DNA from: a virus
Virus record (IMG/VR): IMGVR_UViG_3300036881_000188
Span: 1 to 64,000 of that record
Strand: one strand, 5' to 3'
Length of the DNA stretch: 64,000 bases
This document shows positions 24,861 through 63,949 of this stretch, one piece after another; position 1 is the first letter of the stretch, and every line of letters starts with the position of its first letter. The notes under the pieces were generated by a model that was not told where the DNA came from, made no database searches, and saw only the letters and a program-made list of their open reading frames with translations. Made by a program: the position numbers and the translations under genes.

Positions 24861-25345
24861 GGTCTGCTTCCGAGGTGCAGACCAGACGCCCGGAACCTGT
24901 AACGGAAGATCGATAGATCTCTCAGTGAGCGCTACGAGCTGTTGGTGCCAGTGAGAAGATTATGGGGTTCATGAACCCAATGAGGCAAGAAGTCGGCCCG
25001 GCTTAGAAAGCCGATGCTTTATTGCGTGCCTACCTGCCCCGAATGATGGCAGCGTGGCTCAACCTCGCCGGGCAAAAAGCTCTCGGCTATTCCGGGGCAG
25101 GTTGGAGAAAAACAGATTCTTACCCTACCAAAAGACTGCAAAACAAAGTTATGATGACTTTGGGGCGGTCACGCGCCGCCCTGGGGTGTGGAAACCCCGA
25201 ATACGACAAAGGCACGTCGCAAGACGTGTGATCTCCCTTGCCTTTGGGTCGGGGAGCCTGTGACGTATGTCCAGGCTTCGCGGCTAAAGGTCACAGGAGC
25301 CGTGTCGTATCGGCTTTCCAACTCCCCGACCACGGGTTTAAGGGC
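24861..25345 (+). ncRNA. Candidate large structured RNA / leader of the cyclase gene
   Basis: Dense potential stems with no convincing coding frame. Stems read: 24861-24867/24877-24883; palindrome 24965-24978; 24999-25004/25008-25013; long-range 25032-25041/25093-25102; 25163-25168/25176-25181; GNRA-capped CACGTC-GCAA-GACGTG 25213-25228 nested in 25208-25213/25240-25245. A three-way-junction-like element has outer stem 25247-25256/25322-25331 enclosing 25257-25264/25290-25297 and 25298-25302/25311-25315. It ends in an intrinsic terminator just before the cyclase gene. It may be a riboswitch-like attenuator or a free-standing ornate RNA. No known class is recognised, and its 5' end is a guess. 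Confidence 0.5.
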
Positions 25346-25375
25346 CGTTTGCGGGGGCGCACCGCAAACGTTTTT
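25346..25375 (+). terminator. Intrinsic terminator in leader
   Basis: CGTTTGCGG...CCGCAAACG (25346-25370) followed by TTTTT. It lies only ~25 bases before the cyclase start codon, so it either ends an upstream RNA or acts as an attenuator. Confidence 0.75.
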
Positions 25376-25400
25376 CCCTGGCCTCGTTCGAGGAGTTGAG

Positions 25401-26357
25401 TTGATTCCTCCTGAAGACCAACACGAGCCGAGCGGCGCGGTCGAGATCGATTACAAGTTCCTGGCAGAGAACTGCGCCGATATTCTGTGCAGCGTTGGCG
25501 CGGATCATGCGATTCGCTACGTGTCCCCTTCTGCTCTCGACACTCTCAACTGGGACCCCGGCGAGATGATCGGCAAAGATTTCGACGAGTTCGTATTTTC
25601 CGAGGACCTTGCGGTCCTCGAAGATATTGCCACGGGCAGCGCCGAGGATGGCGCTGCCTATTCCCACGTGAGAGTGCGGCTGTTGAAGAAGGACCAAACC
25701 CCGGTTTGGACCAGCATCAATACCCGGTGTGTGCGCGATCCGGTGAACGGCGAGCCCCGCGTCTACGTTTTGTCCATGCGGGACATCACCGGCCGCAAGG
25801 TGCTGGAGGAGAAACTGTCCGCCCTGGCCATGACGGACGCTCTCACCGGGCTCTGGAATCGTCGCGCTTTCGACCAAAGCCTTAGAAGGGAATGGAAACG
25901 AACGGTCCGCGAGGAATCGCAACTGTCCCTGCTGCTACTCGATATAGATCATTTCAAGCCGTTCAATGACCGGTACGGGCATCCTGTCGGGGATGTTTGT
26001 CTGTGCACGGTTGCTTCCGCCATCAGCGACTCCGTGCGCGCTTCAGATATTGTCTGCCGCTGGGGTGGGGATGAGATGGCAATCATCCTTCCCGCTACAG
26101 AGGGGCTCGGTGCGTTCAGGGCCGCTGAAAAAGTGCGCTCTGCCATCCAGACCTTACGCTTTCGCTCGAATAAGAATTCCGGTGATTGGGTGTCGGTGAC
26201 CGCAAGCATCGGTGTTGCCACTACAATGCCCCAGCCGGATGGAACGATCACGACACCTCCAGACCTGCTCCTGGCAGCCGACAGGGCTTTATACAAGGCA
26301 AAGCGTGAGGGGCAGAACCGGGTGGCGACGGCCCTGCCCGCTGCTCCGGCGGCGTAG
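25401..26357 (+). CDS. PAS-GGDEF diguanylate cyclase
   Basis: A 318-aa protein starting at TTG 25401, five bases after AGGAG; the frame is open upstream through the structured leader, which is unlikely to be translated. Residues ~20-140 form a PAS domain (sensor). Residues ~155-310 form a GGDEF domain with active-site GGDEM at 222-226, the metal-binding stretch LLLLDIDHFKPFND, and an intact product-inhibition site RASD at 213-216, five residues upstream. It would convert two GTP into cyclic di-GMP, raising host levels of this messenger. No membrane segment is seen. A hairpin terminator follows the gene. Confidence 0.9.
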   Translation: MIPPEDQHEPSGAVEIDYKFLAENCADILCSVGADHAIRYVSPSALDTLNWDPGEMIGKDFDEFVFSEDLAVLEDIATGSAEDGAAYSHVRVRLLKKDQTPVWTSINTRCVRDPVNGEPRVYVLSMRDITGRKVLEEKLSALAMTDALTGLWNRRAFDQSLRREWKRTVREESQLSLLLLDIDHFKPFNDRYGHPVGDVCLCTVASAISDSVRASDIVCRWGGDEMAIILPATEGLGAFRAAEKVRSAIQTLRFRSNKNSGDWVSVTASIGVATTMPQPDGTITTPPDLLLAADRALYKAKREGQNRVATALPAAPAA

Positions 26358-55660: not shown

Positions 55661-55791
55661 GGGGCGATGGTGAAACTGGTAGACACACCGGACCGATAAT
55701 CCGGCGCAACAGTGCTCAACCCTGCAGGATAGGCGCAACCGGGCTGCATGACCGGCGTTGCATGGAGGTTCAAGTCCTCCTTGCCCCACCA
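55661..55791 (+). tRNA. tRNA-like gene, anticodon GAT (Ile), ultra-long variable region
   Basis: Acceptor GGGGCGA/TTGCCCC, D-arm with GGTAGAC loop, anticodon stem CCGGA/TCCGG, T-arm GGAGG-TTCAAGT-CCTCC, discriminator A and encoded CCA all fit. The anticodon loop reads CCGATAA (anticodon GAT; position 33 is C, not the usual T). The region between anticodon and T arms is 59 bases, closed by CGCAAC...GTTGC, far beyond the usual 4-24. The body is Leu-like in its D-arm. It may be a non-standard tRNA or tRNA-like RNA; charging identity is uncertain. Confidence 0.6.
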
Positions 55792-57267: not shown

Positions 57268-57611
57268 GCGAGATTCCCATGAGCTGGGTGAGCTTCAGTT
57301 CCCATGGACGATGGGACGCTCCGTTCTGGCTCAAAGTGGCCGATGTTCTGGCTGCTCGGGTGAAGGGCCGTCCCTTCACCGAAGCAGAAGTCAAGAGTGT
57401 GGTTGAAGAGATTGAGGCGCGCAAGGAGTTTCCTGGCGGCTCGATGCTTCGACCGTTACCAACACATGTGGAGTGTCCGAAATGCCTCAGCTGGAATGTA
57501 GATTCAGTCGAGATAACCATTCGGACAACCAAGAATGATGTGCGGACCACCGAGACCGCGGCACAATACAACTGCCGTCATTGTCTCAACGAGTGGACAG
57601 CACAGGGGTGA
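57255..57611 (+). CDS. Small protein with zinc ribbon
   Basis: A 118-aa protein overlapping the nuclease gene by 13 bases. A globular N-terminus (HGRWDAPFWLKVADVLAARV) is followed by a C-terminal zinc ribbon (ECPKCLSW...YNCRHCLNEW). The stop codon lies inside the 5' end of a tRNA gene. Possible nucleic-acid binder. Confidence 0.6.
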   Translation: MSQIGEIPMSWVSFSSHGRWDAPFWLKVADVLAARVKGRPFTEAEVKSVVEEIEARKEFPGGSMLRPLPTHVECPKCLSWNVDSVEITIRTTKNDVRTTETAAQYNCRHCLNEWTAQG

Positions 57612-57693
57612 TGTGCAATCCGGTTCGGCACAGTGGTCTCCAAAGCCACGGAACGCAAGTTCACTGCAGGTTCAAATCCTGTCGCCCCTGCCA
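57604..57693 (+). tRNA. tRNA-Trp (CCA) with class-II-like variable arm
   Basis: Acceptor AGGGGTG pairs with CGCCCCT, with discriminator G and encoded CCA. D-arm GTGC/GCAC; anticodon stem GTGGT/GCCAC around loop CTCCAAA (anticodon CCA, T33 present); T-arm GCAGG-TTCAAAT-CCTGT. The acceptor and anticodon loop match bacterial tRNA-Trp. Unusually, the variable region is 16 bases with its own hairpin (GAAC-GCAA-GTTC), whereas tRNA-Trp normally has 5. The gene begins inside the last codons of the upstream CDS. Confidence 0.85.
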
Positions 57694-62396: not shown

Positions 62397-62789
62397 TCGA
62401 GTTTGGGTGCGGATGGGTAGCGGGCGACGGGTTGATATTCCCGCCGGCGAAGTCAGAGCAGGAGCCGAAAGGCGTTGACTGCAAGGACTTCGTGGCTGAC
62501 CAGTGCACGGGAAACCAAGAGTAGGCCAAACGCAAAGTAGATTCAGTTCGAAACGCAAAGTAGCCCAGACGGAAGTACCTTCGACACACAGCGGACGAGG
62601 CTTTGGCTGCACCCAAAGCAAATTGGGCACGGAACAAGGCACCAGGTGGGCGACGCACACCACGATAAAAACGTTGACACTGTGCCCACAGATGCGGGTC
62701 TTGCCGTGGAGATTCCGGAAAGAACCGGCTCCAAAGTTGATTAAAGGCTCACTGGCGAGAGTCTCCCGCATCAAGTTTCCTCAGAAATG
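62397..62789. other. Gene-free region before tmRNA
   Basis: No protein gene. It carries a direct repeat AAACGCAAAGTAG at 62528-62540 and 62551-62563 and many short stems. It may contain the tmRNA promoter and the 5' leader of its precursor. Confidence 0.45.
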
Positions 62790-63180
62790 GGGAGTATAAC
62801 GCTCGTGAGAAGACAGATCGTCTTCACGATTTCGGACGAGGGTTCGATTCCCTCCGGGTCCACCAAAGCCCTCATGCTTTAGCTGAAGTTCACCGAACTT
62901 CGGGGGAATGTAAGTCAGAGAGGGCTTTGGTGGGCCCGTCACGGTTTCGACGGAATCAGTGACGGATAGAGATGACGAGCCGGGTGGTGTGGCTGCCGTG
63001 TCGATCTCTGGATCGGCAGAAGGACACACAGACGCATATATGCCAACACTGGGTATGTCGCCAGCATGACGTTTGAGGTCTTCGAACCGGCCACGGCCGC
63101 GGAGAACATCCTGGGCGTTCTTGCTGCTGTCTAGTCCGAAAGACTAGACGGGGCCAAGTCTGCTTGGCCTGGCAACAGAA
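62790..63180 (+). ncRNA. ssrA: Circularly permuted (two-piece) tmRNA
   Basis: The acceptor half comes first: T-arm GAGGG-TTCGATT-CCCTC (62838-62854), acceptor 3' strand CGGGTCC, A, then CCA ending at 62865. A 66-base intervening segment follows, with its ends paired (CCAAAGCCCTC/GAGGGCTTTGG). The coding half starts with GGGCCCG (62932-62938), which pairs with CGGGTCC, then the signature TTTCGACGG D-loop. ACGAGC (62975-62980) can pair with GCTCGT (62801-62806). The tag frame runs from GCC 63060 (or in-frame GCC 63042) to TAG 63132-63134, inside hairpin GTCTAGTC/GACTAGAC. The last tag residues are GVLAAV. tmRNA rescues stalled ribosomes. The outer ends are approximate. Confidence 0.8.
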
Positions 63181-63198
63181 GGGCGCCTTCGGGCGCCC
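63181..63198 (+). terminator. UUCG-capped hairpin after tmRNA
   Basis: GGGCGCC-TTCG-GGCGCCC perfect hairpin just after the tmRNA coding half; no strong T-run. It may be a terminator or 3' processing boundary. Confidence 0.5.
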
Positions 63199-63255
63199 AG
63201 CAGACCGGACGCGCATTATACAGAAACATCATGTATTCCATGTCACAAAAGATTC

Positions 63256-63325: not shown

Positions 63326-63949
63326 ATGATTCGATGTGTAATGGCGGACGACCATGTTCTGGTCCGTGAAATTCTGTGCAAGATCATGGAACAGACTTCC
63401 ACGATCCGAATCATCGGGGATCATGGAGATGCGCGCGAGGCAGCAGAACATGCTGTCGACCAGAAGGTCGATGTTCTCATCCTCGATGTGAATATCCCAG
63501 GCGCCGATCCATTTGAAGCGGCTCGATGGGCCAAGTCTTCTCACTTTCCACTGAAAGTGATGTTTCTTACCGGATCAACCGAAGAAGAGCATATCCTCAA
63601 TGCAGTCGAAGCTGGAGCCTCGGCCTACCTGACGAAGACGTGTGGTTTCGATGAGCTGCAGAAAGTGATTGCCAAGATCTATCGCGGCGATTCCCACTTT
63701 TCCATTCAGCCCAGATTTACCGGACATGAACACTCTGCCGGCTTCCATCGGCTGTCTCCTCGACAGAATGAGGTTCTAAAGATGCTCGCCGAGGGAAACA
63801 GCGTCAAGGAAATCTCCATCCTCCTCGGTTTGAGCGCAAAGACCGTGGAAGTGCATAAGTCGACCTTGATGGAGAAGATCGGGTGCCACAACAAAGTTCA
63901 ACTCGTCATGTACGCGGTTCGCCACAAGCTGGTCTCCGTCAGTGTCTGA
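63326..63949 (+). CDS. NarL/FixJ-type response regulator
   Basis: A 207-aa protein with a receiver domain in residues 1-~120: acidic pocket DDH at 8-10, phosphoacceptor Asp54 in LILDVNIPG, Thr82 in FLTGS and Lys104 in YLTKT. A LuxR-type helix-turn-helix follows in ~140-205 (RLSPRQNEVLKMLAEGNSVK, then EISILLGLSAKTVEVHKS). Phosphorylation by a histidine kinase would drive DNA binding. No kinase gene is adjacent, so it may tap host signalling. A hairpin-bearing leader and GAGAGGAAAA precede the ATG. Confidence 0.9.
   Translation: MIRCVMADDHVLVREILCKIMEQTSTIRIIGDHGDAREAAEHAVDQKVDVLILDVNIPGADPFEAARWAKSSHFPLKVMFLTGSTEEEHILNAVEAGASAYLTKTCGFDELQKVIAKIYRGDSHFSIQPRFTGHEHSAGFHRLSPRQNEVLKMLAEGNSVKEISILLGLSAKTVEVHKSTLMEKIGCHNKVQLVMYAVRHKLVSVSV

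Follow-up and report, generated by a model that had tools for sequence, protein, structure and literature searches.

The tmRNA rescues stalled ribosomes and tags unfinished proteins. Its two-piece form is well known from Alphaproteobacteria, Betaproteobacteria and Cyanobacteria; a 2025 database contains 11,946 permuted sequences and, counting every form, 79 sequences from phages (PMC11915505). The 2022 work on phage Melnitz reported two-piece tmRNAs from phages and assigned this form to 53 out of 133 unique tmRNA structures of phages (PMC9004378). Here, we analysed a window of 64,000 nucleotides, i.e. positions 1 to 64,000 of the IMG/VR virus record IMGVR_UViG_3300036881_000188 (124,053 bp, linear and therefore possibly incomplete), and found a complete circularly permuted tmRNA gene at 62790-63221 on the plus strand, both ends being approximate. 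It is no first, as phage two-piece tmRNAs were already known; what it adds is the 30-aa tag, the relationship to phages of Acidobacteriota and the module exchange discussed below. A preliminary description of the window had regarded a copy within phage-type genes as notable; the gene does lie in a phage, but with 53 of 133 structures in the 2022 survey and with 93 and at least 120 viral contigs retrieved by our two pattern scans, adding about 200 two-piece tmRNAs, this is less notable than was assumed.

The gene resembles the Rfam permuted tmRNA family RF04321 and the bacterial families alpha_tmRNA, beta_tmRNA and cyano_tmRNA (RF01849-RF01851) in gene order, tRNA-like domain, intervening segment (IVS), inter-piece helix P2 and tag frame, and it differs from the three bacterial families in scoring below their clade-specific cut-offs, in its 30-aa tag and in its phage location. 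The expectation that Rfam covariance models recognise the gene holds for RF04321, which matches with 70.8 bits against a gathering cut-off of 47 (E = 1.4e-11 for the 64 kb searched), but not for the clade-specific models: beta_tmRNA (RF01850) reaches 47.6 bits against a cut-off of 84, covering model positions 76-172 only, and alpha_tmRNA (RF01849) gives no gathering-level match in the window. A related locus, L253, reaches 53.6 bits with alpha_tmRNA against a cut-off of 50. Like the OM43 phage Melnitz and related marine phages (PMC9004378), the window phage encodes a complete permuted ssrA gene. The Melnitz tmRNA, compared here by its description, shows SAR11/alphaproteobacterial affinity and linkage to a glutamine riboswitch (PMC9004378), whereas the window tmRNA is placed with those of Acidobacteriota phages and of further uncultivated viral contigs.

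ARAGORN independently calls a permuted tmRNA at 62773-63225. In 5' to 3' order the gene comprises the acceptor half, the IVS and the coding half with the tag, i.e. the 3' half of the tRNA-like domain precedes the 5' half. The acceptor piece (62790-62865, its 5' end approximate) is defined by the RF04321 alignment and ARAGORN and contains the P2 3' strand, the T-arm, the 3' acceptor strand and an encoded CCA; the coding piece (62932-63221, its 3' end approximate), supported in addition by inverted repeats, contains the 5' part of the tRNA-like domain, the pseudoknot-1 region, the tag and the 3' pseudoknot region. All these features lie on the plus strand. RNA folding gives a z-score of -7.0, none of 100 shuffles folding equally well, and the covariance model, the shuffles and the covariation described below rule out chance or a mis-call. 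The identity as a tmRNA gene is well supported, and the earlier recognition of a circularly permuted tmRNA in a phage-like genome is confirmed by RF04321, ARAGORN, covariation and synteny as well as by the IMG/VR record and its PHROGs matches. The extent first given, 62790-63180, hits the right locus but stops about 40 nt short of the 3' end at about 63221. A scan for promoters and terminators around the gene returned nothing exceeding chance.

The acceptor stem is formed by the 5' strand GGGCCCG (62932-62938) and the 3' strand CGGGTCC (62855-62861), all cells of which are paired (100%), followed by A73 (62862) and CCA (62863-62865). The preliminary description correctly placed the CCA half before the tag half and paired these two strands; the pairing includes a G3-U70 wobble with 62859. 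This wobble and A73, together specifying alanine identity, are invariant in 12 of 12 relatives. Both hallmarks it had named are present, i.e. the T-loop TTCGATT (62843-62849) within a T-arm at 62838-62854, whose stem GAGGG/CCCTC is aligned by RF04321 and shows both-sided changes at four of five pairs, and the D-loop-like TTTCGACGG (62945-62953), evident from the sequence and RF04321. The P2 helix connects the pieces through its 5' strand ACGAGC (62975-62980) and its 3' strand GCTCGT (62801-62806). The IVS (62866-62931, 66 nt, with an inner hairpin at 62885-62901) is, by analogy with known permuted tmRNAs, presumably cut from the mature tmRNA. It is closed by a stem of exactly 11 bp, as reported before, between CCAAAGCCCTC (62863-62873) and GAGGGCTTTGG (62920-62930), in which the CCA is buried; this stem and the acceptor stem are continuous, forming a single 19-nt inverted repeat (95%). 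Two relatives, L239 (G014 75193-75494) and L253 (3408-3851), encode CCT instead of CCA at the end of the acceptor half, so that CCA would need to be added after processing. The near-identical locus L248 has an IVS of 62 nt where that of L254 (4474-4950) comprises 117 nt; the additional sequence resembles the first part in inverted orientation.

To these helices we applied a covariation analysis, for which 12 sequences were aligned in the order of the mature RNA and 18 pairs of the acceptor stem, P2 and the T-stem were scored. 96.3% of cells are paired, both-sided changes occur at 9 of the 18 pairs, and the covariation score is 0.384 versus a shuffled mean of 0.113 and slid controls of at most 0.113. 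Within P2, 90.3% of cells are paired and two pairs show compensatory changes, one occurring as GC, AU or UA and the next as UA or AU; the outermost P2 pair as named here fails in 6 of 12 sequences.

The tag frame called by ARAGORN (63042-63131, stop codon TAG at 63132-63134) encodes the 30-aa tag ANTGYVASMTFEVFEPATAAENILGVLAAV, starting with the alanine resume codon GCC at 63042 and ending with LAAV-stop, a small hydrophobic C-terminus. In the related viral contig G006 29 of 30 residues are the same, a single residue differing, and a second related contig, G014, encodes the homologous tag ANTTGYLASKTAEVLAFPAPAAAFEAAYLAAA. The end LAAV departs from LAA or VAA, and the tag is three times as long as the usual 10 aa. 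SsrA variants ending in AAV remain subject to degradation in E. coli, at a slower rate. The most frequent tag length is 10 aa (PMC11915505), which is also the commonest length (101 cases) among 207 permuted tmRNAs called by ARAGORN, a biased sample in that its loci were chosen by pattern and the window was counted twice; about 45 of these tags have at least 22 aa. An A is present at position -4 of the resume codon in the window gene and in all family members read, corresponding to A86 of E. coli, which is required for tmRNA function (PMC2481249). A hairpin, GTCTAGTC/GACTAGAC (63129-63149, inverted repeat I3), contains the stop codon. A candidate 3' pseudoknot at 63152-63205 combines GGCCAAG/CTTGGCC with GTCTGC (63158-63163) and GCAGAC (63200-63205) and encloses a hairpin at 63181-63198; candidate pseudoknots 3' of the tag agree with the inverted repeats, here I9, I22 and I24.

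The source record is a large, uncultivated tailed phage, having PHROGs matches to terminase, portal, major head protein, tail fibre, DNA polymerase, primase, a UvsX-like recombinase and ribonucleotide reductase. Within its 124 kb no SmpB, tyrosine integrase or RF-1-domain protein was found; as a tyrosine integrase is lacking, the tmRNA gene is no obvious attachment-site fragment, and with phage genes on both sides bacterial contamination or a prophage edge is ruled out. Downstream, a LuxR-type response regulator gene (63326-63949, plus strand; Pfam Response_reg and GerE; 90% identity to G006 and 49% to G014) adjoins the tmRNA gene in all three related phages, i.e. the window phage, G006 (178 kb) and G014 (214 kb), and is followed in all three by a gene similar to peptidyl-tRNA hydrolase 2 (PTH2), located just past the window at 64221-64835 of the record (L216 221-835) and kept in G014 (44%) and in phage Tunturi_5 (gp176, 50%). 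The G014 protein scores 27.9 bits with Pfam PTH2 against a cut-off of 23, the window phage's protein 22.6 bits, just under it; such a neighbour is in keeping with ribosome rescue. The next gene, in G014 as in the window's record, is a tRNA-Gln. Relatives of the terminase occur in 18 viral contigs, with the permuted tmRNA only in the two longest, G006 and G014; the remaining ones also lack an adjacent response-regulator gene and may simply not cover the region. The tmRNA gene keeps the same position in phages with a terminase identity of only 70%.

Further features of the window were noted. A tRNA at 57604-57690 is called as Trp (anticodon CCA) and has a long variable arm of class II type (GAACGCAAGTTC), G006 having a tRNA-Trp call at the corresponding position. 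An odd tRNA-like gene of 128 nt at 55661-55788 combines a Leu-like D-arm, the anticodon loop CCGATAA and a variable region enlarged by about 55 nt; it reaches 47.4 bits with RF00005 and is not called by ARAGORN. The phage also encodes a PAS-GGDEF protein, a diguanylate cyclase (25188-26357; GGDEF E 1.3e-48), which together with the response regulator suggests phage interference with host signalling.

Two signature patterns retrieved 9 and 12 viral contigs, respectively, in overlapping sets. Among isolated phages, we identified permuted tmRNAs by RF04321 in Tunturi_5 (PP885688.1, 86.4 bits) and Tunturi_4 (PP885687.1, 79.2 bits), both unannotated in their records. These Arctic soil isolates infect Tunturiibacter (Acidobacteriota), and their published description does not use the word tmRNA in its main text (PMC11924767). 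Their tmRNAs share the P2 layout of the window's and have long tags (34 and 33 aa); otherwise the two phages are distant from the window phage. Of 50,697 phage records, moreover, Tunturi_5 alone contains a relative of the PTH2-like protein, with 50% identity along 139 residues, this gene lying about 34 kb from the tmRNA gene, in contrast to its close position in the window phage. On account of the tmRNA relatives in both phages and the PTH2-like relative in Tunturi_5, the window phage probably infects Acidobacteriota. That the host might be an alpha- or betaproteobacterium or a cyanobacterium, as hinted at earlier, is not borne out, the clade-specific Rfam models staying below their cut-offs and the nearest isolated relatives infecting Acidobacteriota. 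The response regulator (plasmid matches) and the terminase, ribonucleotide reductase and portal proteins (phage matches) gave no host-pointing matches, and we found no publication on the tmRNA form of Acidobacteriota hosts. Scanning 84,980 species with both signature patterns revealed no bacterial donor; as the same patterns also miss Tunturi_4 and Tunturi_5, this is weak evidence for a phage-only lineage.

In Tunturi_4, a release-factor-like gene with an RF-1 domain directly precedes the permuted tmRNA gene (L258 1119-1466), possibly another ribosome-rescue pairing. A 32-nt match to Myxococcus phage Mx1 was rejected as a sign of relationship, as it covers the T-arm only and the Mx1 tmRNA is one-piece. 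This unannotated Mx1 tmRNA (OR576727.2, L002 2656-3033; RF00023, 117.7 bits) encodes the tag VNTNVFGSQMMAAA. The record assigns the end of this tmRNA gene to a CDS labelled 'Hef-like endonuclease', and a gene for an HNH endonuclease follows.

The window and G006 are 96-97% identical across most of the compared stretch, with a divergent tract from about 62617 to 63032 (plus strand), the right junction of which lies at 63023-63033, just 5' of the resume codon. Identity amounts to 69% in the acceptor half, 63% in the IVS and 55% in the pseudoknot-1 region, versus 99% in the tag and 98% in the 3' region. The mirror case is provided by loci L119 (2841-3054) and L155 (8229-8442), which share a block of 214 nt with 98.6% identity as the only nucleotide match in 12 kb. 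This block consists of the acceptor half, the IVS and the 5' tRNA-like half; beyond it the tag and 3' region are wholly different, the tags having 10 and 31 aa, respectively. A chimeric assembly is unlikely for this pair, each form recurring in a second contig from another sample (L119 and L204; L155 and L104), while each form of the window/G006 mosaic is known from one assembly. These comparisons suggest the tRNA-like part and the tag part being swapped at a junction beside the resume codon. We tentatively extend this to a lineage of long-tagged two-piece tmRNAs carried by phages, the hosts of which (Acidobacteriota) lie outside the three classical two-piece lineages, and which may evolve by whole-module exchange, an extension for which we see somewhat less than even odds.

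We consider the gene to encode a functional two-piece tmRNA with a probability of roughly 0.8, based on the complete permuted gene, the covarying stems and P2, G3-U70 and A73, the open tag frame and its being kept in place in three phages. Most likely it would act in trans-translation with SmpB, AlaRS and proteases of the host, host SmpB being needed as the 124-kb record has no SmpB gene. According to this model, a single transcript would fold so that the IVS stem hides the CCA, the tRNA-processing enzymes of the host would remove the IVS, and the two pieces would stay joined via the acceptor stem and P2. Upon charging with alanine by host AlaRS, the tmRNA would be delivered by host SmpB and EF-Tu to ribosomes stalled during infection, which would switch to the tag at GCC 63042 and add the 30-aa tag ending in LAAV, marking the protein for proteolysis. 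The phage may thereby keep up ribosome turnover and clear broken proteins while it degrades or displaces host mRNA.

The same lack of an SmpB gene would also suit an RNA acting as decoy or modifier, which would bind to SmpB, AlaRS or the ribosomes of the host and inhibit or divert its trans-translation. A precedent exists in the RNA of mycobacteriophage DS6A consisting of the tRNA-like domain only (PMC11915505, PMC4131195), and the tag is unusual; yet a pure decoy could dispense with the long tag frame, the resume context and the structured 3' region, all of which are retained, and 29 of 30 tag residues are kept in G006 where other parts diverge, making this reading unlikely. Slightly less probable still is a tag serving a job other than degradation, for instance directing proteins to another protease or place, which would drive tag diversity. 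The share of long tags in the biased 207-tmRNA set is in line with it, as are loci L161 and L248, being 89-99% identical outside the tag and 68% inside, whereas most tags end in small hydrophobic residues typical of degrons (LAA, MAA, VAA, AAV). That tmRNA genes are common integration sites and that parts of permuted tmRNA genes do recombine would allow for a passenger, i.e. functionless host tmRNA DNA acquired via imprecise excision or recombination. We judge this very improbable given the complete gene with covarying stems at the same place in phages with 70% terminase identity and without a tyrosine integrase, the covariation indicating conservation above neutral expectation.

The window gene belongs to a well-supported group of phage two-piece tmRNAs that includes isolates with culturable hosts, Tunturi_4 and Tunturi_5, making it possible to test in the laboratory how a tmRNA benefits phages, and permuted tmRNA genes escape annotation in published phage genomes. 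If the module exchange holds true, the permuted layout would turn the acceptor half, the IVS and the 5' tRNA-like half into one contiguous cassette of about 200 bp, replaceable in one event with its own pairs intact and the tag module untouched, or the reverse, which suggests why a permuted gene could suit phages.
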